A DNA stretch of 64,000 nt, from assembly GCF_902167635.1 (NCBI RefSeq), contig NZ_CABHMS010000011.1, positions 153,252 to 217,251 of the forward strand, in the 5' to 3' direction. The DNA is from Chitinophaga vietnamensis. Lineage in GTDB: Bacteria; Bacteroidota; Bacteroidia; Chitinophagales; Chitinophagaceae. A program made the position numbers and the translations under genes. Under the pieces are notes generated by a model. It saw nothing but the letters and a program-made list of their open reading frames with translations. It did no database searches and was not told the origin of the DNA. Of the stretch, positions 9,827 to 38,912 are shown piece by piece (position 1 is the first letter of the stretch; every line of letters starts with the position of its first letter).

Positions 9827-11635
9827 ATGCGCAGATATCTCTCTTTATTATTCCTCTCCTGCCTGATGACACTGCGGGCAGATGCCCAATCCCGGCTGCT
9901 TTCCGGCTACGTAAAAGATGCCCAAACCCACGACGCCCTGGCGGGCGTATTGGTGCGTGTAGTCAATACCGATATCATGGCCAGCACCGATAAAAATGGC
10001 CACTATAGCCTGAAAGTGGCTGGCAGCGTAACGTTGGAGGCCATCTACCTGGGTTATCAGCGTGCGGTGGTAAAAGTAAGTGAACAAACTACTTCCAAAG
10101 ATATTTTCCTGCAAGCCGATACCAGGGCATTAAGTGAAGTAGTGGTGGCCCGCGGCAATTATAACGTCAAAGCCATGAGCATAGTGCCTTCTCCGGCGAA
10201 AATATACTTCCGTGGTAACGATGATTTTACCGAGTCTTATGCTGCCATTCATGAAAACGTTTTCCACAATGTAAGCGACCAGCCCCTCAGCACATTCAGC
10301 TCCGATGTAGACCGTGCTTCGTACAGCAATGTGCGCCGCTTTCTCAATAACGGCAGCATGCCCGTTCCGGACGCGGTGCGGGTGGAAGAGATGATCAATT
10401 ATTTCGATTACCATTATAAAGCGCCGCAGGGCAAAGACCCGGTGGCTATCTATTCGGATATGGCCGTCTGTCCCTGGAATACCCGTCATCAGCTGGTGCG
10501 CATTGCCTTGCAGGCCAAAACCATTGACACCAAAGACTTACCGCCTTCCAACCTGGTTTTTCTGATAGATGTTTCCGGCTCGATGAATGAGCCCAACAAG
10601 CTGCCCCTGGTAAAAAAGGCCTTCAAGGCCTTGGTGCAGCAGCTACGCCCACAGGATCGTGTAGCCATCGTGGTATACGCCGGCGCTGCCGGCGAGGTGC
10701 TGCCTTCCACTTCCGGCGACCGCAAAGCGGATATCATCAAAGCGCTGGAAGACTTGCAACCCGGCGGTTCCACCGCCGGTGGCGAAGGCATCACCCTGGC
10801 GTATAATATCGCCGCCAAGCACTTTCTCAAGAAGGGCAACAACCGCGTGATACTGGCTACCGACGGGGATTTCAACGTAGGCCCTTCTTCGGCAGGCGAA
10901 CTGGAAAGATTGATAGAAAGTAAACGTGATAAAGGCATCTACCTGTCGGTGCTGGGCTTCGGCATGGGCAACCTTAAAGATGTTACGATGGAAACCATCG
11001 CCGACAAAGGCAATGGCAACTATGCCTACATCGATAACTTTGAAGAGGCCCGCCGCACCTTCGTTACGGAGTTTGGCGGTACCCTGTTCACCATCGCCAA
11101 AGATGTGAAGCTGCAGGTGGAGTTCAATCCACGATTCGTACAGGCGTACCGGTTAGTAGGCTACGAAAACCGTGTGATGCAAAATGAAGATTTCAACAAC
11201 GATAAAAAAGATGCCGGCGATATGGGCATGGGCCACACCGTTACCGCTCTCTATGAAATCATTCCTACCGGCGCCAAAGGCGAAAAAGTAAATTGGGTAG
11301 ACCCGCTCAAATACCAGCAACCTAAAATTATTGGCAGCGGTTCGGAAGTGCTGACCGTGAAGATGCGTTACAAACAGCCCGACAGCAACACCAGCGCGCT
11401 GGTAGAAGAAGTGTTGCGATACAACGACAACAAGATCGAAAGCAGCAACAGCGATTTCCGTATGGCGGCCGCTGTGGCGGCTTTCGGGCAACTGCTGCGC
11501 AATTCCGCTTTCAAGGGCACCGCTACCTACGACCAGGTGCTGACATGGGCCACCAGCGCCAAAGGCGATGATCCTGAAGGTTATCGCGCTGAATTTATTC
11601 AGCTGGTAAAAAAAGCGAAGCTCCTCGATAAGTAA
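9827..11635 (+). CDS. Exported VWA-domain protein with carboxypeptidase-regulatory-like N-terminus (YfbK type)
   Basis: Secreted 602-aa protein. The signal peptide (RYLSLLFLSCLMTLRADAQ) is followed by a CarboxypepD-reg-like beta-sandwich (SGYVKDAQTHDALAGVLVRV), then the von Willebrand-associated region (STFSSDVDRASYSNVRRFL). The VWA domain has an intact MIDAS (DVSGSMNE) and the ATDGDFNVGPSS segment. A C-terminal DUF3520-type domain ends the protein. Such proteins are often called Ca-activated chloride channel homologues without biochemical proof; protein-protein or metal-dependent ligand binding at the envelope is the safer inference. The start at MRRYLSLL is chosen because it begins the signal peptide. 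Confidence 0.87.
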   Translation: MRRYLSLLFLSCLMTLRADAQSRLLSGYVKDAQTHDALAGVLVRVVNTDIMASTDKNGHYSLKVAGSVTLEAIYLGYQRAVVKVSEQTTSKDIFLQADTRALSEVVVARGNYNVKAMSIVPSPAKIYFRGNDDFTESYAAIHENVFHNVSDQPLSTFSSDVDRASYSNVRRFLNNGSMPVPDAVRVEEMINYFDYHYKAPQGKDPVAIYSDMAVCPWNTRHQLVRIALQAKTIDTKDLPPSNLVFLIDVSGSMNEPNKLPLVKKAFKALVQQLRPQDRVAIVVYAGAAGEVLPSTSGDRKADIIKALEDLQPGGSTAGGEGITLAYNIAAKHFLKKGNNRVILATDGDFNVGPSSAGELERLIESKRDKGIYLSVLGFGMGNLKDVTMETIADKGNGNYAYIDNFEEARRTFVTEFGGTLFTIAKDVKLQVEFNPRFVQAYRLVGYENRVMQNEDFNNDKKDAGDMGMGHTVTALYEIIPTGAKGEKVNWVDPLKYQQPKIIGSGSEVLTVKMRYKQPDSNTSALVEEVLRYNDNKIESSNSDFRMAAAVAAFGQLLRNSAFKGTATYDQVLTWATSAKGDDPEGYRAEFIQLVKKAKLLDK

Positions 11636-26267: not shown

Positions 26268-29200
26268 TTACAATAAAACTAATTTTCCGCCCATCATCTT
26301 TTTCTTGCCGTTACTGTTGATAGTTAGCCGGTAAAAATAGATGCCTGGTGATAATTTTGCTCCCGACTCACCAGTTCCATCCCAGGGCATTCCATCAAAA
26401 CGGCTGCTGTCCGATATTATTGTGTTACGTATTGTTTTCATCAGCTGCCCGTTCACCGCAAAGATCTCCAGGCTTAGCTGCAATGCCTGTCCCTGCTGAT
26501 TATGCACAAACGTAAACCGCGTAACATCATGAAAAGGATTAGGATAATTCCCCAATGCAGATACCATTATGGCTCCCGACCTTACTACTTCAAATTCGAT
26601 TTCGGTTGTTGCTATGTTATTACACGCGTCCCATGCACTGATCCTCAGGCGATGTTTCCCCTCCGCGATATCTGACATAGGAAATGCTACAGTTCCTTTA
26701 CTATAGCTATCCAAAGATGCTTCAAAATAATCATTTAACACAAAATATTCTGAATTATCCAGTACTGCCACCAGGTTATGCGCCGCCACATTACCGCTGA
26801 TATTAATACCGGAACTGTCTGTAAGGTCTACCAATAATAAAGGGGAGACATTGACCACGTCTCCGTTCCGGAACAGGCGATTGTTAAGCCAGGCCTGTAT
26901 CTGCGGGCCCGCCGTATCTTTCGCTGCCGCTCCGGCCGCAGTGGTGAAGCCTTTATAATAGCCATTGCCATCGATATCATTGTTACTGGTATAATAACTG
27001 ATCTTGCCTGTACCGCTTGCGCTGGCGTCGGCAGGGATGGTAACAACAGCTGAAAAACGGCCACCAGACACGGTATGCGTTCCCCTGAACAATACGTGGT
27101 CCTGTACCCGGAACGCTGCCACCTGGCTGCCGGCGCTATTGCCCCGTGTCGTCATCTCGGCAGGGCTGTCATATATCGTCGTATATAGTACGCCGTTATA
27201 CCCGCTGATCATCTGCCCCTGCATATCTTCCACATGGCCGCTGATCACCGCTCTGCGCAAGGCTTTCAGGGTATCGGCATTTCCGTTCACCGCTTTGCCG
27301 TTAATCGAATCTGTTACTACCCGGTAACGTGGAAAGGCCAGTTTAAGCGCCGGGTCTCCCAGTAACTGAAATTTACGGTTATTAATAATATCATTAAAGT
27401 TATTATGCGTTTGATTTTTAGCTTGCTGCAAAGCCGCGCCCAGACTGGGCATCAGCCCATCGGCGCCAGGCGTTGTCACGGCTCGCAGATAATTTTGGTG
27501 CATCAGGCGGTTGGAAGAGGCATACACCGCCCGGGTTGTGGTCATCAATGCAATCGCGCCACTCCGCTGTTGCAGCAACACCTTATGCCCCAGCGATACT
27601 ACCGCCGGGTTATCGAAGGGCGCAAAATCGCAGGAAGCCGTTACCAGCAAGGGCAGGCGGTCTTCATTGTGCCAGTCCGCAATGGTATTGGCATCTACCA
27701 CGCTGGCTTCAGCCAGGCGCGAACTGTTGCCATGACCGCTGTAATTGAAGATGAGCACGCCCCTGTTAATGGCCGCCGCGATAGCTTTATTCACATCAGG
27801 ATAGGCGCCATTCACTTTGGGCCAGGCATCGAGGTAAAGCTTGCCTGTATTGAGTACCGGCGCTTCGATGGCAATACTGTCGCTCACTGATTCGGCATCA
27901 CTGAAATGCAGGTTATTATCGCCTTCATCGGCTACAAAGGCAATGCGGTTGCGCCAATCGCCGAAATGTTGCGGCGCATCGTGATAGTGAATGATCTTGT
28001 CTACCGCCAGCGCAGCTTCAGCGGCGTTACGCGCCGGCAGGCGGCCGATGCCCAGCGCCACTGGGTTTCGTATATCCGTTCTAGTTATATCGTCATTGTC
28101 TCCCAACATACCAAAGTAATCGTCTGTTACATAGGAGCTGAGCGGATTGAGGGCATTATCACTTTGCCAGGAAGGCACCTCATTGGTATTGTTCTTAACG
28201 CGGTAGCGGTAGTCGTAAGACGCGGCGCCAAACAACAGCAGGTAACGGGGCGCCGGGCCGCGATCATGCAACATTTTGAGAAAGTCGCGCAAGGCAGTAG
28301 GATCAGGCGATCCCGAAGCAAATTCATTGTATACCTGGTCCGTGCTCACGACCAATACCTCCAGTTGATCGTGCTGGCGATGCCAGGCCGCGAGGCGCTG
28401 CGCTTCCGCCAGCAGTGTGCCGGTGGTGATGATCACCAGGCCAGCGGCAGCCGCAGCATGGATATCCTGGTTAGGCACGGCGCCTGCGGGATACGCCGCC
28501 AGAGCCTTGCCCGGATCAAATGCAACGTATTCGTGGAGGCGTTCGTTCTTCATCGTGAACACCAGCGAATCGCCCTGTTGTACGGCGGGTACCAACAACG
28601 GTTGTTGCGGATCAGTGACATCCCATATCTGCGTATAGGCATTGGTGTTATATACGGCACAGCGGGCAGCGAGGCCGCTGCCGGCATATTGGGCGGAACG
28701 GAAAGGCAGGAAACCGGTTGCTGGCAGCACGGGAGCGCAAGCGGCCTGTATCTCGAGGTAGTCCAACCATCCGCGGGCATTGTTATCTCCCGGCAGGAAG
28801 TCTACGGTTACCTGCAAGGCAGGATCGGAGGTATACACGCCGCCAGTGCCGGTAGCGGCGGTACCAAAGGCTTCAAATACGTTGCCGCTAACGGGCAACA
28901 GGTACACGGTGGCAGCAGCTTGTTTGTTAATGCTCACATTGAAATTGCTGCCGTTGATGCCGCGGGCGGCCGCACGGATATTCACCGTCACCGGGCCGCG
29001 CGCCGGTGATGGCAGCTGGAAATTATAGCTGTGGCGGATGCCGGCGGCAGGGTCCAGGCTGAACTCCTGCCCAAACCATTGTTTACCACTGCGCAGGAAA
29101 TTGAGGCTGTCCCTTTCATAAAACTCGTGATAGTCGATAGTATAAACATTAGCTTGCGCAGGAGATGCAGGACTGTCGGGCTTTATACGGGCGCCGGGCG

Positions 29201-29660
29201 CTTCAAGATTGAGAAAGTACCAGGCCGTATCGCTGTAGATATTGTACTGATGGCTATAGGACTGTGTACCTGAATCGTACTGCCAGCGATGCGGGCCAGG
29301 GGCATAGAACAGCATATAGTCGTTACCGTTAAGCTGCCCGTCGCCGCCATCGGCGGCGTAGAGGGCTACCGCTTGCAGGTCATCGGGGCGCGGCTGAGCA
29401 TTCGGCTCCGGCAGCATTTGCCCGCCATTGCCATATAAGCGGATGTGCTGAGAAGAGATAGCGCTGGTGTTGATGCCCAGCTGTGCGAGCAGGGGCAGGT
29501 CGATGCGGTAAATGCCCGGCCCGGTCACGGCCAGCTTGTACCAGTTACCGGCGGCCAGCACGGAATGCGCCTGGTAACTGCGGGACTGCTGGCCATGCGC
29601 TTCCCTGGCCCCTGTGAAGGACATCAGTACAATGGTGATAAAAATACAGATGACTTTCAT
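26268..29660 (-). CDS. porU: Type IX secretion system sortase PorU
   Basis: Gingipain-like (C25) cysteine endopeptidase on the cell surface that removes the C-terminal signal of type IX cargo and attaches cargo to A-LPS. 1130 aa with signal peptide (ICIFITIVLMSFTGAREAHG). Catalytic His lies in FNYSGHGN near residue 643 and catalytic Cys in TASCDFAP near residue 677, both intact. The C-terminal part has the beta-sandwich GNYPNPFHDVTRFTF...LSPGIYFYRLTI, usual for PorU and for type IX cargo. Paired with porV downstream and divergent from gldJ. Confidence 0.95.
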   Translation of the reverse strand: MKVICIFITIVLMSFTGAREAHGQQSRSYQAHSVLAAGNWYKLAVTGPGIYRIDLPLLAQLGINTSAISSQHIRLYGNGGQMLPEPNAQPRPDDLQAVALYAADGGDGQLNGNDYMLFYAPGPHRWQYDSGTQSYSHQYNIYSDTAWYFLNLEAPGARIKPDSPASPAQANVYTIDYHEFYERDSLNFLRSGKQWFGQEFSLDPAAGIRHSYNFQLPSPARGPVTVNIRAAARGINGSNFNVSINKQAAATVYLLPVSGNVFEAFGTAATGTGGVYTSDPALQVTVDFLPGDNNARGWLDYLEIQAACAPVLPATGFLPFRSAQYAGSGLAARCAVYNTNAYTQIWDVTDPQQPLLVPAVQQGDSLVFTMKNERLHEYVAFDPGKALAAYPAGAVPNQDIHAAAAAGLVIITTGTLLAEAQRLAAWHRQHDQLEVLVVSTDQVYNEFASGSPDPTALRDFLKMLHDRGPAPRYLLLFGAASYDYRYRVKNNTNEVPSWQSDNALNPLSSYVTDDYFGMLGDNDDITRTDIRNPVALGIGRLPARNAAEAALAVDKIIHYHDAPQHFGDWRNRIAFVADEGDNNLHFSDAESVSDSIAIEAPVLNTGKLYLDAWPKVNGAYPDVNKAIAAAINRGVLIFNYSGHGNSSRLAEASVVDANTIADWHNEDRLPLLVTASCDFAPFDNPAVVSLGHKVLLQQRSGAIALMTTTRAVYASSNRLMHQNYLRAVTTPGADGLMPSLGAALQQAKNQTHNNFNDIINNRKFQLLGDPALKLAFPRYRVVTDSINGKAVNGNADTLKALRRAVISGHVEDMQGQMISGYNGVLYTTIYDSPAEMTTRGNSAGSQVAAFRVQDHVLFRGTHTVSGGRFSAVVTIPADASASGTGKISYYTSNNDIDGNGYYKGFTTAAGAAAKDTAGPQIQAWLNNRLFRNGDVVNVSPLLLVDLTDSSGINISGNVAAHNLVAVLDNSEYFVLNDYFEASLDSYSKGTVAFPMSDIAEGKHRLRISAWDACNNIATTEIEFEVVRSGAIMVSALGNYPNPFHDVTRFTFVHNQQGQALQLSLEIFAVNGQLMKTIRNTIISDSSRFDGMPWDGTGESGAKLSPGIYFYRLTINSNGKKKMMGGKLVLL

Positions 29661-29805
29661 TATCTTGTCCGTCGGTAAAGGATCGTCTCTACAAAGTAGA
29701 TAAAATAGAAGATAAAAAAATTAAATATATCTTTTTTCTTCTTACAAATCATAGATTTAACAGATATCGGGGGGCTTGTATGAGGGTTTCTTACAAATTA
29801 AATTA

Positions 29806-29836
29806 TTTCGCTATAAAATAAAAAAGATTACATTTG
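29806..29836 (+). promoter_or_regulatory. Promoter of gldJ
   Basis: A perfect -7 element TACATTTG (29829-29836) is preceded at 18 bases by TTTCG (29806-29810), a weak -33. The start codon is 37 bases downstream. The gap between divergent porU and gldJ is 213 bases and AT-rich. Confidence 0.6.
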
Positions 29837-29873
29837 CGTTTACTGTAAATATAATCGACTAAAGCTGTATCGC

Positions 29874-31424
29874 ATGCGTAGATTAACCTCTTTATCATTG
29901 CTCGTAGGTACCAGCGTAATGCTATCCATGACTGCCTGTCATAAAGACGGCGGGGGACTTTTCGGCAAAAAGAAAGATAAATCTTCTGCTACCGGCTGGA
30001 CGTATAACGACCCTAAGATGGGCGGGTTCAGCGTAGCCAAGAATAAGGACCAGCAAACGGGTCCGGGCCTTGTGTTTGTACAGGGTGGTACTTTTGCCAT
30101 GGGCGCCACGGAGCAGGACGTAATGGGCGACTGGAACAACATTCCACGTCGTATTACAGTTTCCTCTTTTTACATTGATGAATCAGAAGTAGCCAACGTG
30201 CACTACCGCGAGTACCTGTACTGGCTGGCCCGCGTATACAACGAGTCTTTCCCGGATGTATACCGCAAGGCTTTGCCCGATACGCTGGTATGGCGTAGTG
30301 AACTGGCCTACAACGAGCCGCTGGTAGAATATTATTTCCGTCACCCGGCATACAACGACTATCCGGTAGTAGGCGTAACCTGGAAACAGGCCGTTGACTA
30401 TTGTAAATGGCGCTCCAACCGTGTGAACGAAAAGCTGCTGATGGACAAAGGCCTGCTCTCCAAAGCAGACGTAACTAATCAGTCGGACGATAATACTTTC
30501 GATACCAAATCCTACATGGCCGGCCTGTACGAAGGTACGCCGGGCAAGATGTCGAAAGGCACCAAAAGCGAATTTAAAAATCCTGATGGCACGCCGCGCA
30601 ATGCGCAATTTGAAGATGGTATCATGTTGCCCAACTACCGCCTCCCTACAGAAGCTGAATGGGAATATGCGGCGCTTGGCTACATAGGCCAGAACCCTGG
30701 CCCTTCCAAGAAAGAAGGCAAACACGGGGAAGAGCTCATCATGAACAAACAGGTATATTCCTGGGGCACCAACACCAGCGGCCTGCGTGATATCCGCCGT
30801 GGTAACTGGCAAGGTCAGTTCCTCGCGAACTTCAAACGCGGCTCCGGTGATAACATGGGCGTGGCCGGCGGCTTGAACGACCGTGCTTCTATCCCTGGTC
30901 CGGTACGCTCCTTCTTCCCGAACACCTTCGGTATCTATAACATGTCCGGTAACGTAGCTGAATGGGTACTGGACGTTTACAGACCACTCACCCCCATCGA
31001 TGGCGACGACTTCAACTACTTCCGTGGTAACAAGTTCCAGACGGTATATCAGAACGAAAACAAAGAGTTCGAAAAAGATAGCCTCGGTCACCTGAAAATG
31101 CGCGATGTAACAGATGAAGAAAGCGCCAACCGCCTCAACTACCAGAAAGGTGATGTGATCAACTACCTCGATGGCGACTCCCTCTCCCAGGTGGAATACG
31201 GTTATGGCGTAACTACCCTCATCAACGATAAATCACACGTAGTGAAAGGTGGTAGCTGGAACGACCGCGCCTACTGGCTCTCACCAGGCACCCGTCGTTT
31301 CATGCAGGAAGATATGGCCACCAATACCGTAGGTTTCCGTTGCGCAATGGACCGCGTAGGTAGCCCTGAAGGTAACAAGTTCAAAACTGGTAACCTGTTC
31401 CGCAAGCAAAGACAAAAACGCTAA
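29874..31424 (+). CDS. gldJ: Gliding motility lipoprotein GldJ
   Basis: Lipoprotein with a formylglycine-generating-enzyme-like (SUMF1/FGE-sulfatase) fold, needed for gliding and type IX secretion in Flavobacterium, where it stabilises GldK. 516 aa, lipobox VMLSMTAC (Cys 22). Domain features: GGTFAMGATEQD, YDSEVAN-type ring (YIDESEVANVHYREYL), YPVVGVTWKQAVDYCKW, LPTEAEWEYAA, YNMSGNVAEWV and VVKGGSWNDRAYWL. GldK is homologous, but the divergent porU-porV next to it matches the known gldJ locus and not the gldKLMN operon. Confidence 0.9.
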   Translation: MRRLTSLSLLVGTSVMLSMTACHKDGGGLFGKKKDKSSATGWTYNDPKMGGFSVAKNKDQQTGPGLVFVQGGTFAMGATEQDVMGDWNNIPRRITVSSFYIDESEVANVHYREYLYWLARVYNESFPDVYRKALPDTLVWRSELAYNEPLVEYYFRHPAYNDYPVVGVTWKQAVDYCKWRSNRVNEKLLMDKGLLSKADVTNQSDDNTFDTKSYMAGLYEGTPGKMSKGTKSEFKNPDGTPRNAQFEDGIMLPNYRLPTEAEWEYAALGYIGQNPGPSKKEGKHGEELIMNKQVYSWGTNTSGLRDIRRGNWQGQFLANFKRGSGDNMGVAGGLNDRASIPGPVRSFFPNTFGIYNMSGNVAEWVLDVYRPLTPIDGDDFNYFRGNKFQTVYQNENKEFEKDSLGHLKMRDVTDEESANRLNYQKGDVINYLDGDSLSQVEYGYGVTTLINDKSHVVKGGSWNDRAYWLSPGTRRFMQEDMATNTVGFRCAMDRVGSPEGNKFKTGNLFRKQRQKR

Positions 31425-33695: not shown

Positions 33696-34505
33696 CTACA
33701 GCTGTTCCCTGATCTGTGATATCAGCGCTGTAAACTCTGGCTCACGGCGCACTTCCGGCTGCCAGGCCAATCCCATCTTGCAAAGGTCATACTCCTGTAT
33801 AATGGTGGCGCCTTCCCTGCCAGCCTCTTGTGCCATCACCCAAACGGTATCGGAGATGGCCGCCGCATTCACAATATCATGGCTCACCAGGATCAGCGTA
33901 TTTGTTTCCTGTAAGGTGGATACCTTCAGCAGCAGCTGAATTACTTTGTCGATCATCACCATATCCAGCCCGGAAAAAGGCTCGTCCAGCAAAATGAATT
34001 TGTTGCCGGTCAATACCTGCTGTAAAATGCTCACCCGCTGGCGCTGGCCACCACTGAGCTGTGCGGGGTATTTCTTCAGATGTGCTGTCAGCTCGAAAGT
34101 GGCAGCGTAATCCATAATGATCTCTCTCTTTTCACCTTCCGTCAATCTTGCACTCGCATTATCCAGTCCTATCTTCAGGTTATTATAGATCGTGCGATGC
34201 TGGAACAGGATATAATTCTGCGGCACAATGCCCACCTCTCCTGCTTTTACAGGGTGCTGGTCGGCATCGATCCTGATCACGCCTGCAGTAGGCGTCATCA
34301 GGCCGGATAATATTTTGAACAGCTGTGTTTTGCCGATACCGCTTCTGCCAATCAGCGAAACTACTTGTCCCTGCTGCATATCAGGGCGGTGAATATCGTA
34401 GACGGAGAAATTAATATCCCGCAGGATGGTTTTGCCGGCATATTGCAGGCTGATATTTTCAGCAGTTAGCAAGGCCGATGTTTTCGTATATGCTTTGGCG
34501 TTCAT
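33696..34505 (-). CDS. ABC transporter ATP-binding protein (TauB/SsuB-like)
   Basis: 269-aa ABC ATPase, last gene of an unusual five-gene minus-strand locus. Walker A (GRSGIGKT), Q-loop (VPQNYILF), signature (LSGGQRQR), Walker B (FILLDEPFSGLD) and H-loop (LVSHD) are all intact, so it should hydrolyse ATP. Class resemblance is to nitrate/sulfonate/taurine importers. The start codon overlaps the permease stop codon (ATGA), indicating translational coupling; the 13-residue upstream extension is rejected on that ground. The substrate cannot be read from the sequence. Confidence 0.88.
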   Translation of the reverse strand: MNAKAYTKTSALLTAENISLQYAGKTILRDINFSVYDIHRPDMQQGQVVSLIGRSGIGKTQLFKILSGLMTPTAGVIRIDADQHPVKAGEVGIVPQNYILFQHRTIYNNLKIGLDNASARLTEGEKREIIMDYAATFELTAHLKKYPAQLSGGQRQRVSILQQVLTGNKFILLDEPFSGLDMVMIDKVIQLLLKVSTLQETNTLILVSHDIVNAAAISDTVWVMAQEAGREGATIIQEYDLCKMGLAWQPEVRREPEFTALISQIREQL

Positions 34506-35281
34506 GAGTTGCGTGTTTGAAGTTTGGTGTAAGGGAATAACCATTCGCGGAATTTACCGAGGATGTAGTCGAAGAAGATGCCCAGTAGGAAGATGATCAC
34601 CAATGTGCTGAACACAGTATCCAGCTGCACGTATTTATTAGCCCTGATGAGCATCACGCCAAGGCCGCCTTCACTCATGCTGAGGCCTTCCACAGAGGTG
34701 ATCATCAGCCACGCAATGGCGAAGTTCTGGCGCATCACTTCAAATACCTGGTCGAGGCGGCCCACCACCACTACTTCCCACAGCGTTTTCCAACTGTTCA
34801 TGCGCAGGGTGGTGCACAGTTCGAACTCCTGCTTGTTGATGCCATCGATCACCGATAACAGCGAGGTTACAAAAAAGGGGACAATACCGAAGATGAGCAG
34901 GCTGATCTTGAGATCGTGCCCGTTTTTCGTCCATAGGGTAAACAGGAAAATCAGACCCGTTAATGTCAGATACCTGCACTTGATCACGAAGCGCGCTACC
35001 GGGCTGAATACCGGTATGATCGAAAGATAGCTGATCACCAGCGCGATGAAGATAGAGAGGAACATCCCTTTGATCGTGAGCACCACGCTACTGAAAAGGT
35101 TATCCACAAATGCAGGATCCTGTATCATATGCCCGAGCGATTGCAGTACTTTCAGTGGCGTAGGTATCAGCCCACCACCGCTGATCTGCCAGCAAACCAG
35201 CGCCAGCACTATTTCCAGCACAATGAGTGTTGTCATGGAGCGGCGACTGAGTACCCGCAAAGGCTCAAAGATGTGTTTCAT
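34502..35281 (-). CDS. ABC transporter permease (TauC/SsuC-like) with altered EAA loop
   Basis: 259-aa inner-membrane permease with about six helices (TLIVLEIVLALVCWQI, MFLSIFIALVISYLSIIPVF, LTLTGLIFLFTLW, LLIFGIVPFFVTSLLSV, FAIAWLMITSVEGL, VFSTLVIIFLLGIFFDYIL). The cytoplasmic coupling region lies at ELCTTLRMNSWKTLWEVVV, where the classical EAA-x3-G motif is degraded (the Gly is missing and the following LP is absent). The ending GGLGVMLIRANKYVQLD matches TauC-type proteins. It is coupled to the ATPase downstream, and separated from the solute-binding gene upstream by 163 bases holding a palindrome. Confidence 0.85.
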   Translation of the reverse strand: MKHIFEPLRVLSRRSMTTLIVLEIVLALVCWQISGGGLIPTPLKVLQSLGHMIQDPAFVDNLFSSVVLTIKGMFLSIFIALVISYLSIIPVFSPVARFVIKCRYLTLTGLIFLFTLWTKNGHDLKISLLIFGIVPFFVTSLLSVIDGINKQEFELCTTLRMNSWKTLWEVVVVGRLDQVFEVMRQNFAIAWLMITSVEGLSMSEGGLGVMLIRANKYVQLDTVFSTLVIIFLLGIFFDYILGKFREWLFPYTKLQTRNS

Positions 35282-35322
35282 TTTAGAAGGGATTTTTTAT
35301 TCAAGTATGCTTTGGTGAGATA

Positions 35323-35441
35323 ATTTGAGGATGTGAGAATTTTTGGATTTTCGGATTTGGTTCTATCAAGTCGTTCCTGAAGCTTCAGGAGCGACTTGAT
35401 AGAACCAAATTTCAACATCCGAAAATCAAAAAATCCTCAAA
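35323..35441. repeat. Large palindromic repeat, family copy 3, inside the ABC/OmpA locus
   Basis: The inner 56 bases (35354-35409) form a palindrome with one mismatch centred on GAAG/CTTC. Outer arms ATTTGAGGAT...ATCCTCAAAT and GATTTTCGGAT...ATCCGAAAATC extend it with small gaps. The left flank GGATGTGAGAATTTTTGG resembles the flanks of copies 1 and 2. It lies between the SBP-OmpA gene and the permease gene of the same strand. Confidence 0.85.
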
Positions 35442-35444
35442 TAT

Positions 35445-37211
35445 TTATTGGCCTAGTACGATCTGTACGCGGCGGTTCTGCGCGCGGCCATCAGCGGTGC
35501 TGTTGTCGGCAACGGGTTGAGCGGCGCCATAACCTTTAGACTCGATACGATCGGCAGCGAGGCCTTTGCCGAGGAGGTAGTTCTTTACGGCGGCGGCACG
35601 TTGCTCAGACAACTGCTGGTTAGCGGTTTCGTTGCCCACATTATCCGTGTGACCATACACGCCTATCTTCAGGCCTTCAGCTACCACGGCGCTTTTCAGT
35701 ATCTCGTCCAGCACCACATGGGAGTTGGATCTGATCACGGCGCTACCGGTTTCAAACTGTATCTGGTACGATTTGGACGATACCGCGCTGGTAATGTTCT
35801 CTGCGTACTTTTCCTTGATGGCAGCGCCTTCCAGCAGTTCGGGGTGGTTGGCCAACACAGAGGCAAGGAATGATTTATCCACCACTGCTGTGTACACTGG
35901 ATAGGTAGGCATGATATCGGGATACATTTTCACCATGATATCACCGAAGGTGGTATACACGATCTTGTACCGGTCGATATTATCCTTGCCCATACCGAAG
36001 GTGTTGGCGGCATCGGAGAGATTGAATGCCATAGAACCACCGAGGGATACGGTTTGCCCCTGTGCATCTTTTTCTTCTGTGCCGTTATAGTACTTCAGCC
36101 AGTAGGCGCCATTCTGTTCATTGTACACTTTCGCAGAAACCTCGCCGGCAAAGGCTTTGGCGTCGTTGAAGGAGCGTACCTGGTCGCCGGCCTGCGCCAG
36201 CGCAATGATCAGGTTTTCGATATCCGTACGGTGATCATACGCAAACTTTTTGATGGTGATGGTGATGTTCGGCATCTGTGAAGCGTATTCACGGGTGGAT
36301 GCGATGTTCACCAGTCCGCCTTTTTTCTGCGCCACGTTCACGTCGCCGGGCGTCCAGGTGGCTACGCCATCAACGCCTACGGTCGTGTCTTTGCTGATCT
36401 TTTTACCGTCTACGATGAGCTTGCGCGTTTCTTTATACCCGGCGATGTATTTGGCGCCGGCATCGAGGAAATCGTTTGCTGCCACCAGGTTGATGGCTTT
36501 GGCATCGTAGGTGGTTTCATCGGGGTTCACGCGGATACCGTTGTCGCCAGCCCATTTCAGCAGGATGTTCACGTCGCCGTCGCGGAGCACACCGGCCACT
36601 GTTTTACCGATCGCAGTTTTAGGATCGCGCTTCCAGTCGGCGGGGCCCATCAGTTTATCTTCACCATAACTTTTACCCATGGTATAGAATGCGATGGGTT
36701 GGTATTCGGGGCCGAGTGGCTCCAACTCCTTACTCAGTGCGGCAAAGAAGGCGGGCATACCATCGCCCATGAAAGAGGCGAATATGCCGGTAGCATTGGG
36801 ATTGCTTTTGTACTCCTGTGCAAATTTCGCCAGGTCGGCGATGGATTTGTTACAGTCATCCTGGCGCACCAGTTCTACCTGCAATTTTGCTTTATCGATG
36901 AGCGAGTGCTGGGTGGTATGTTGGCCACCATTGGCATACATGAGCGCGAACTGCGAGTTCCAGGCCATTACACGCCAGGAGATCTTCGTACCGCCATTCA
37001 CCGCTTCCGTATTCCCGGGCAGTGGCAATTTGCTGGCGTTGCCGCTGAGCGATGCCTCGGGCGCATCGGGCAACTGCACCTTACCGATGTCAGTAGCGGC
37101 TTTCGCCTGTTGCGGGCGCTTGTCCCACCAAAATATTTTTGTTGCATAGATGGCGCCTAAGAGCAATACGATGCCCATAACCTTTCCACCAGGTTTCACT
37201 TTCATAGCCAT
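35445..37211 (-). CDS. Membrane-anchored solute-binding domain fused to OmpA peptidoglycan-binding domain
   Basis: 588-aa envelope protein. An N-terminal signal anchor (VMGIVLLLGAIYATKIFWW) is followed by a linker and, from about residue 65 to 450, a type-II periplasmic-binding-like region (ISWRVMAWNSQFALMYANGG, GDVNILLKWAGDNGIRVNPDE, FLDAGAKYIAGYKETRKLIVDG shown as parts). Residues about 470-588 are an OmpA domain (IQFETGSAVIRSNS, GVYGHTDNVGNE, SEQRAAAVKNYL, GYGAAQP, NRRVQI) that should bind peptidoglycan. Ordinary importer-binding proteins are free or lipidated; fusing one to OmpA ties it to the wall. It precedes permease and ATPase genes on the same strand. NCBI-style names call such proteins phosphate-binding/OmpA; the ligand is unknown. 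Confidence 0.88.
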   Translation of the reverse strand: MAMKVKPGGKVMGIVLLLGAIYATKIFWWDKRPQQAKAATDIGKVQLPDAPEASLSGNASKLPLPGNTEAVNGGTKISWRVMAWNSQFALMYANGGQHTTQHSLIDKAKLQVELVRQDDCNKSIADLAKFAQEYKSNPNATGIFASFMGDGMPAFFAALSKELEPLGPEYQPIAFYTMGKSYGEDKLMGPADWKRDPKTAIGKTVAGVLRDGDVNILLKWAGDNGIRVNPDETTYDAKAINLVAANDFLDAGAKYIAGYKETRKLIVDGKKISKDTTVGVDGVATWTPGDVNVAQKKGGLVNIASTREYASQMPNITITIKKFAYDHRTDIENLIIALAQAGDQVRSFNDAKAFAGEVSAKVYNEQNGAYWLKYYNGTEEKDAQGQTVSLGGSMAFNLSDAANTFGMGKDNIDRYKIVYTTFGDIMVKMYPDIMPTYPVYTAVVDKSFLASVLANHPELLEGAAIKEKYAENITSAVSSKSYQIQFETGSAVIRSNSHVVLDEILKSAVVAEGLKIGVYGHTDNVGNETANQQLSEQRAAAVKNYLLGKGLAADRIESKGYGAAQPVADNSTADGRAQNRRVQIVLGQ

Positions 37212-37250
37212 AGCTGTAATATTTAAATTTTTAAGAGGTTTGTTTTTCTT

Positions 37251-38237
37251 TTAGCTTAACAGGTCGTTGTAGTTGTCATTGCGTACAGTACCGGGCTGGC
37301 GCGGCTCACGGGAAGGCTCCCATTTCTGCACATCCAGTTTGTAGGTTTTGTCGGGGTCGAAAGATTCCAGCATTTTCAGGCCTTGCAGCTCATAGGTGGC
37401 ATTGTCCAGGTCTATGGAGCGCATGAAGTCTGTAGAATAGTGGATCGCCTTTTTCATGCTCGACAATTTCATAGCGATATCTTCTTTCAGGAACTCCATG
37501 GATTGTTCTACCATGAGTTTCTTTTCAGGATCGCCATTGAAAATTTTCAGTGCAGATGACAGCGCTTTTTTACCGGAGGTGACGGACTTGTAAAGGTCTT
37601 TTTTCAATTCCAGTTCATTGCGCGCATCTTCTATCATGTATCCGCTGTTCTTGTGTACTTTGGTGAGATAATCACCGATGCGTGCAAGATTGTCGCGGAT
37701 GGGCGTGAGCTGAGAGATATACTCTTTGATACGCGCGATCTGGCGCGTAGCATTACCGAGTTCCGGCAGCATATTGTTGTTCTGTGCAGCTTTGGCGCGG
37801 CTCATGAGCTGCTGCATCTCTTTCTCTTTTTCACCGATCTTCATATCGATCTTTTCTTTCTGCGCATCTACTTCTACTGACTGATTATACAGCTTTTCGC
37901 GCTGCTCTTCCATATCAGAGATATAATCTTCTGCGATGATAAAGGGATCGAGTTCTATTACCAGTCCTACGAGTTTCTTCATCAGCCACTCATAGAGATA
38001 AAAGAGGCTCAGCCTGAGTTTGCGGTGTGTTACGCAATAGAGGAACACACCTAAGCACACCAGTGCTATTCCAAAGTTGATGGTGTTCCATACTACTTTG
38101 GTGAGGATGGGTATCACATAGTATCCAACTGCGATGAGCAGGCCGATACCTATGAGCATACCGAACTTGCCGCCAGGCCTGTTCCAGTATGCTTTCAACT
38201 GCTGGCCTTGTTCAGCGGGAAAATATTGTGTTTCCAT
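37251..38237 (-). CDS. Membrane protein with long cytosolic coiled coil, unknown function
   Basis: 328-aa protein with two adjacent helices near the N-terminus (FGMLIGIGLLIAVGYYVIPIL and TINFGIALVCLGVFLYCVT) and then a mostly helical soluble region with coiled coil (EEQREKLYNQSVEVDAQKEK, GEKEKEMQQLMSRAKAAQNN). The C-terminus is polar and probably disordered (WEPSREPRQPGTVRNDNYNDLLS in part). No characterised family is recognised. It starts three bases after its coiled-coil partner and lies 39 bases before the SBP-OmpA gene, so it is very likely part of the same assembly. Confidence 0.78.
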   Translation of the reverse strand: METQYFPAEQGQQLKAYWNRPGGKFGMLIGIGLLIAVGYYVIPILTKVVWNTINFGIALVCLGVFLYCVTHRKLRLSLFYLYEWLMKKLVGLVIELDPFIIAEDYISDMEEQREKLYNQSVEVDAQKEKIDMKIGEKEKEMQQLMSRAKAAQNNNMLPELGNATRQIARIKEYISQLTPIRDNLARIGDYLTKVHKNSGYMIEDARNELELKKDLYKSVTSGKKALSSALKIFNGDPEKKLMVEQSMEFLKEDIAMKLSSMKKAIHYSTDFMRSIDLDNATYELQGLKMLESFDPDKTYKLDVQKWEPSREPRQPGTVRNDNYNDLLS

Positions 38238-38240
38238 TTT

Positions 38241-38912
38241 TTACAGTGCTGTTTCTATTTTTTGGATGTCTGTATTGATTTTTCTGATCATAGCCTCGCA
38301 AGCCACCTGGTAACCCTGGCGGTTGGCAACGATTCTTTGTTCCTGCGCCGCGATCTGTTCTTTCAATTGTTCAGATTCGTTTTGCGCATCGGTGATTTCC
38401 TTTGTCAGTTGCTGTATCAGTGCAGCATTGTTGGCCATCTTTTTCTGCAATGCAGCCAGTTGTTGCTGGCGGCCATCAATTTCGGAAGACGCTTTTTCAT
38501 TGACGGCGGCTTCAAAGTTGCTGCGGTCCTGCGCGATAATCTGCTTATACTGTGCGGCTGTTTCAATGAGTTTGTTTTTGGTCAAACCCTGTATGCTCAG
38601 CGTTGCAAATACAGCGGACATGCGTGCGGATTCATCTTTGACATGCGCTTCCAATGCGTCCATCATTTTCCAGAATTCATAATAATCCGGACCCGGGAAA
38701 TTGCTTCGTTCAAACAGCGCATTGAAGTGCTGCTCAAATTTGTCCATTTCCGCAGCTGACAAGGCTTTGGGCGGGTTGGCATCCGGAGTGTTGACATTGC
38801 TCGGAGGGAATTTTCCAGGCAGGGCGGACTGATCATGCCTGCCGGTTTCGTGTGTTTCATCGGGTTCAAATTCCACAAAAAGGCCCATGGCTTTTTTCAG
38901 AAAGTTTGACAT
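38241..38912 (-). CDS. Soluble coiled-coil protein, unknown function
   Basis: 223-aa cytosolic protein, first gene of the locus. A conserved-looking N-terminus (MSNFLKKAMGLFVEFEP) is followed by a Pro/Asn-rich linker, a helical domain (FEQHFNALFERSNFPGPDYYEFWKMMDALE, in parts), then a coiled coil to the end (AALQKKMANNAALIQQLTKE, QLKEQIAAQEQRIVANRQGY). No signal or membrane helix. PspA- or toxic-anion-resistance-like adaptors share this general look, but no family assignment is claimed. Confidence 0.75.
   Translation of the reverse strand: MSNFLKKAMGLFVEFEPDETHETGRHDQSALPGKFPPSNVNTPDANPPKALSAAEMDKFEQHFNALFERSNFPGPDYYEFWKMMDALEAHVKDESARMSAVFATLSIQGLTKNKLIETAAQYKQIIAQDRSNFEAAVNEKASSEIDGRQQQLAALQKKMANNAALIQQLTKEITDAQNESEQLKEQIAAQEQRIVANRQGYQVACEAMIRKINTDIQKIETAL

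Follow-up and report, generated by a model that had tools for sequence, protein, structure and literature searches.

What does a pair of coiled-coil proteins do beside an ATP-binding cassette (ABC) transporter whose binding protein is fixed to the cell wall? The question is raised by five minus-strand genes in the window, i.e., the stretch of 64,000 nucleotides from the 6.3 Mb genome of Chitinophaga vietnamensis that was analysed here: coiled-coil genes ccA and ccB, a gene for a solute-binding protein (SBP) fused to an OmpA domain, and genes for an ABC permease and an ABC ATPase (Table 1). The initial annotation had read these genes as one unit and as the best candidate for an undescribed system. 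Their positions and spacings (3, 39, 163 and −4 bases) were confirmed from the list of open reading frames (ORFs), and the unit is indeed conserved: in relatives the set is kept in order and its genes diverge in step. The claim of novelty, by contrast, does not hold, as this operon type is already mentioned by Ravi et al. (2024; PMC11237479), from whom the bacterial operon is known in outline. It had gone unnoticed that the membrane-bound coiled coil resembles PspA and that huge phages carry the unit as cargo, the latter being unreported as far as our literature searches go.

Recurrence in Bacteroidota and in huge phages

When the complete binding protein was used as query against 148 Bacteroidota genomes, 145 of them matched, only three at full length, and OmpA domains swamped the result; therefore, the binding domain without the OmpA domain served as the later query. 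A scan of the GTDB species genomes with this domain returned 231 relatives, the best 80 of which were kept. These belong to Bacteroidota or to metagenome-assembled genomes with doubtful labels (L062, L078), and the closest relatives of the window protein among them, as in the tree described below, come from Chitinophaga species. Adding the window and two more genomes brings the total to 83 bacterial loci, 68 of which hold all five genes in the same order (one of these, L115, has split frames for ccB and SBP). Contig ends cut 12 of the remaining 15, leaving three real exceptions: L057 has ccB and the binding protein only, with a full copy (L066) in the same genome, while L078 and L116 have the three ABC genes only. 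Loss of the coiled-coil genes from the neighbourhood of the ABC genes in relatives had been named beforehand as a ground for dismissing the unit; they were found conserved there, L078 and L116 being the exceptions. Flanking genes are common to subsets of loci only, the most frequent flanking cluster comprising 15 loci; enolase, M23-peptidase and bcp neighbours, recognised by eye, occur in 11-12 loci each and are a context that near relatives have in common with the window. Within Bacteroidota the unit occurs patchily, in 7 of 296 genomes and 4 of 140 genera; plasmid records gave no match at E 1e-5, and the PADLOC matches were all generic ones to ATPases, MotB/OmpA or coiled coils.

The five genes are also found in order in LR756500.1, a 462 kb record labelled 'uncultured phage' and the only match among phage records at E 0.01. 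Two scans of IMG/VR, the first giving 60 loci and the second 129 relatives (best 80 kept, 38 of them new), yielded 98 contigs, some of which are near-copies. All five genes are present in 82 of these, 79 in the exact order and three with an extra match. Another 11 are cut by contig ends, and five are not (L124, L144, L201, L234, L251); a ccA-like gene was seen by eye nearby in L201 and L251. Phage markers were sought in 31 large records, namely LR756500.1 and the 30 contigs of at least 100 kb from the first scan, as well as in 22 new contigs of at least 100 kb from the second. Terminase_6N was detected in 19 of the 31 (18 over the cut-off) and also in 6 of 14 control genomes, whereas the T4-type portal was detected in 15 (14 over the cut-off) and in none of the 14 controls; it was likewise found in 6 of the 22 new contigs. 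Among all 53 large records the portal exceeds its cut-off in 20, and 18 of these hold the complete cassette (17 IMG/VR contigs and LR756500.1), counting L229 with its split binding-protein frame. For the other 33 the phage identity is less certain, and L121 (416 kb, 71% identity to the window protein), in which both terminase and portal are missing, may come from a bacterium.

Genome texture was compared for stretches of three viral contigs, which contain 1.44-1.60 genes per kb with median lengths of 134-178 amino acids (aa), as compared to 0.92 and 282 aa in the window and 1.19 and 223 aa in five bacterial loci. They carry 55, 41 and 11 tRNA genes per 360, 200 and 200 kb, respectively. Strand switching failed to separate phage contigs (0.18-0.42 per gene) from bacteria (0.27 and 0.31). 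When 48 ORFs sampled from the same contigs were scanned against PHROG, the 25 families listed of 86 included a major head protein, head maturation protease, terminase large subunit, RIIA lysis inhibitor and RNA ligase/tail fibre attachment catalyst. Our literature searches, which covered open-licence papers without their supplements, found no description of a phage-borne cassette. The terms ABC, PspA, OmpA and transporter are absent from the main text of the huge-phage paper PMC7162821, as are virus, phages and bacteriophage from that of PMC11237479; PMC12363816 describes a pspA-like gene adjoining terD in Jug phages.

Co-divergence was measured on 145 loci, 78 of them viral, in which all five genes are near full length. 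Pairwise gene distances correlate at r 0.87-0.94 (0.83-0.91 among the viral loci), as compared among cassette genes only and with no outside control gene, at median identities from 19% (ccA, ccB) up to 43% (ATPase). A chance gene cluster is ruled out by this co-divergence and by the recurrence in bacterial and IMG/VR loci. Moreover, the genes are under purifying selection in bacteria and phages alike: where synonymous change was unsaturated, the ratio of nonsynonymous to synonymous change (dN/dS) was 0.02-0.17 between bacteria and 0.02-0.19 between most phage pairs, one ccA pair reaching 0.31. A tree was built from 101 binding domains, 78 of them viral and 23 taken from the 67 bacterial ones. 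Bacterial copies lie scattered between viral copies in it, and seven host/virus label changes are needed, five of them forced by well-supported branches. The portal-bearing contig L122, 66% identical to the window protein, sits in the window's part of this tree. Exchange of the cassette between phages and bacteria is thus indicated, without a direction, because the tree is a quick, midpoint-rooted one in which bacteria are under-sampled and some contigs may be mislabelled as viral.

The coiled-coil pair and the wall-tethered ABC module

Table 1. Coordinates of the five-gene operon and its features in the window
Feature	Position	Strand	Remarks
Five-gene operon	33696..38912	−	Order of transcription ccA, ccB, SBP-OmpA, permease, ATPase
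ccA, soluble coiled-coil protein, 223 aa	38241..38912	−	ORF list and family alignment
ccB, membrane protein with two transmembrane (TM) segments and cytosolic PspA-like helical domain, 328 aa	37251..38237	−	ORF list, PF04012
ccB TM hairpin, residues 23-62	38052..38171	−	Hydropathy
ccB region like PspA alpha1 to alpha2+3, residues 97-232	37542..37949	−	Begins at DP motif
SBP-OmpA, inner-membrane-anchored binding protein with peptidoglycan-binding domain, 588 aa	35445..37211	−
SBP-OmpA N-terminal TM anchor, residues 7-29	37125..37193	−	Without lipobox
SBP-OmpA TauA/CmpA/NrtA-type binding domain, residues about 71-460	35832..37001	−
SBP-OmpA OmpA-type peptidoglycan-binding domain, residues 478-588	35448..35780	−	PF00691
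TauC-like ABC permease, 259 aa	34502..35281	−	PF00528, TauC/SaoP match, family alignment
ABC ATPase	33696..34505	−	PF00005; about 269 aa from ATGA-overlap start (282 aa from 34544)
Palindromic dispersed repeat, 126 bp	35320..35445	.	Between SBP-OmpA and permease; outside the conserved unit

The relationship of ccB to PspA emerges from its register with PspA/Vipp1, which was identical by four methods (Pfam, hhalign, Vipp1 sequences of the PDB and VIA-align). Pro98 of the DP motif is conserved by alignment in 145 of 145 loci, and the structure model places helices at 99-153, 157-232, 237-274 and 282-292. PF04012 was matched at E <= 0.01 by six of 31 ccB members (best 2.5e-7), but the window protein misses the curated cut-off (20.9 vs 33.9 bits, E 3e-4), which is why we call ccB PspA-like rather than PspA. 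It is the single match, below the cut-off, in a whole-genome PspA_IM30 scan of the source genome at E <= 0.001, so that this genome seems to be without a canonical PspA; PspA_IM30 exceeds the cut-off in 5 of 40 genomes of the same class. The partner ccA has no TM segment by hydropathy in any of the 145 members, and its short N-terminal segment MSNFLKKAMGLFVEFE appears amphipathic by eye. That ccA is a second PspA was rejected for want of profile similarity: hhalign against the PspA profile gave a probability of 1.4%, PF04012 was absent among its Pfam matches at E <= 1, and its PDB matches (the best 60 of 152 listed) resemble generic coiled coils.

The binding domain is held between inner membrane and peptidoglycan, as the initial annotation had supposed: across the family an N-terminal TM segment is found in 138 of 145 members and a lipobox in none, and in the OmpA domain Asp523 and Arg538, 15 residues apart, are present in all 145 by alignment and in 138 by a strict pattern. 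The conserved Asp and Arg of OmpA domains have a role in peptidoglycan binding. The TM anchor and the fused OmpA domain stand in place of the free periplasmic or lipidated binding protein of TauABC/NrtABCD importers. The TauA/NrtA-type fold was identified from the structure model; PDB sequence searches with the domain gave nothing usable, and there was no close sequence match to TauA/SsuA/NrtA/CmpA-type families, the best being NMT1 at 5.5e-5, in 2 of 16 members. Ten acidic residues are conserved at 95% or more in the alignment of the 145 loci. Downstream of the cassette, L139 and L140 encode another relative of the binding protein, which is shorter (453 aa).

Regarding the transporter, a BPD_transp_1 permease and an ATPase with its catalytic residues were found, as expected of the importer type; the TauC/SaoP-type assignments come from family matches far below cut-offs. 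The catalytic motifs of the ATPase are kept across the 145 loci by alignment: a first motif count had flagged 24 of them, and the alignment together with a looser Walker A pattern, present in 145 of 145, points to pattern failures. The ATPase of the viral contig L150 (620 aa ORF) appears by eye to contain an intein-like insertion within the Walker A motif.

Several loci carry additional genes. In L040 (relative G084) an AAA+ gene, which we take to be CbxX/SpoVK-like, follows the ABC ATPase after 4 nt (9946-11352), reminiscent of the AAA+ partner in the operons of Ravi et al. (2024). A TM protein with a match to Ppx-GppA, an actin-like fold, is encoded between ccB and the binding protein in Xanthocytophaga (L118:8649-9677). 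A small signal-peptide protein forms a cluster of 20 loci, mainly of one phage clade, 18 members lying between binding protein and permease; it looks by eye like an outer-membrane barrel and has no Pfam match (L128:9558-10037; L166:6628-7131). TnpB-like ORFs were seen by eye beside and inside the cassette of the portal-bearing contig L124 (1168-2394, 8188-9513). SPFH/band-7 proteins are encoded between permease and ATPase in L142 (9059-9913), L143 and L146 and downstream of the ATPase in L086, L103, L104 and L110, PF01145 being confirmed for those of L142 and L110; they echo the PspA-band-7 links described in PMC11237479.

The palindrome upstream of the permease was rejected as an operon element, since its 61 matches across the source genome, mostly partial and of 26-60 bases, identify a dispersed repeat family. 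At 26268-31424 the operon has neighbours that look by eye like type IX secretion genes (PorU-like, GldJ-like).

A proposed role in inner-membrane maintenance and its alternatives

The steady co-inheritance of the genes suggests that the PspA-like pair and the wall-tethered ABC module work together. We propose, at a confidence slightly short of even, that the five proteins form one trans-envelope complex for inner-membrane maintenance. The TM hairpin of ccB holds the protein in the membrane with its PspA/ESCRT-III-like helical domain facing the cytosol, and ccA would act as the soluble partner, which probably gets to the membrane by way of its N-terminal segment, next to the permease and ATPase. 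On the other side, the binding domain is anchored in the inner membrane by its N-terminus and clamped to peptidoglycan at the opposite end by the OmpA domain. Binding of a presumed ligand, or strain between membrane and wall, would set the conformation of the permease and thereby ATP hydrolysis, the ABC module either sensing or supplying a small solute; hydrolysis would in turn control assembly of a ccA/ccB coat, by which the inner membrane would be stabilised or remodelled. Phage copies would presumably preserve the host envelope while a long infection runs its course or when other phages compete. A wider claim is put forward tentatively, as appreciably less probable than its negation: several huge-phage lineages would keep a complete machine across the envelope, with an ESCRT-III-like coat under the control of the peptidoglycan-tethered ABC binding domain, by which the phage would rule the host inner membrane during infection, and the chromosomal Bacteroidota operons, the present one included, would repeatedly have been exchanged with phages.

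Alternatively, the cassette might be a true high-affinity importer of the taurine/sulfonate/nitrate/bicarbonate class, for which tethering would provide a high local concentration over the permease, the coiled coils would be scaffolds that cluster transporters and phages would feed their host. We consider this unlikely: divergence of the coiled coils keeps pace with that of the ABC genes across the 145 loci, in a comparison with no outside control gene, to a degree beyond the need of a dispensable scaffold, there is no free or lipidated binding protein, and the ten conserved acidic residues, if they lie in the cleft, would be odd for an anion binder. A device for competition among phages, which would stiffen or seal the inner membrane at the site of DNA entry, block superinfection or lysis from without and have been adopted by bacteria as an anti-phage system, would agree with the whole cassette in 18 portal-bearing phage records, the purifying selection on phage copies, the interspersed bacterial copies with at least five well-supported label changes and the patchy occurrence in Bacteroidota. 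However, the near relatives of the window share a chromosomal context of enolase, M23-peptidase and bcp, unlike a defence island, the PADLOC matches are generic, and the energy-coupled transporter is left unexplained, so that we judge it improbable. Slightly less probable still is a role in passing mechanical force to the cell wall, as in FtsEX-EnvC or MotAB. Here the ATPase would pull the wall-bound binding/OmpA arm and gate wall synthesis or spacing, and the coiled coils would set the place. Against it, the permease is TauC-like and not a mechanotransmitter of the FtsX/MacB type, and a passive arm would not need the complete TauA-like fold and the conserved residues that the binding domain keeps.

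Membranes of many organisms are remodelled by PspA/ESCRT-III proteins, and PMC11237479 states that control of assembly is unknown for those PspA homologues that have no AAA ATPase linked to them. The fixed set of a PspA-like protein with a wall-tethered ABC transporter is a testable candidate for such a controller. An intact phage cassette under purifying selection suggests, moreover, that phages gain enough from controlling the host inner membrane to spend about 5 kb of their genome on it, and carriage by phages allows the function to be tested during infection.

Comparison with known systems

The closest described counterparts are the operons linked to the phage shock protein (PSP) system in Ravi et al. 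(2024; PMC11237479), which comprise PspA, a TM-bearing Snf7 homologue, an AAA+ ATPase, an ABC ATPase, a permease and a PBPB-OmpA protein (example OGG56892.1). Compared by description only, both share the PBPB-OmpA protein, permease, ABC ATPase and a PspA/Snf7-like TM coiled coil; by contrast, no AAA+ gene was seen by eye among the window ORFs adjoining the operon, and ccA is not recognisably PspA. With the TauABC/SsuABC/NrtABCD/CmpABCD importers the cassette shares the binding-domain fold, permease family and ATPase class, whereas its binding domain is membrane-anchored and OmpA-fused, lacks a close sequence match and is accompanied by coiled-coil partners. The sequence register of the cytosolic region of ccB is that of PspA/Vipp1 (IM30)/ESCRT-III, and the predicted layout of its helices may correspond as well, but the domain is preceded by a TM hairpin in the place of the N-terminal amphipathic helix of PspA, and the window protein scores under the Pfam cut-off. 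TagL of the type VI secretion system and MotB are inner-membrane proteins with periplasmic OmpA-type anchors. The cassette protein resembles them in carrying a C-terminal peptidoglycan-binding domain on an inner-membrane TM protein and differs from both in having a complete TauA-like domain between TM segment and OmpA domain and an ABC transporter as its partner.

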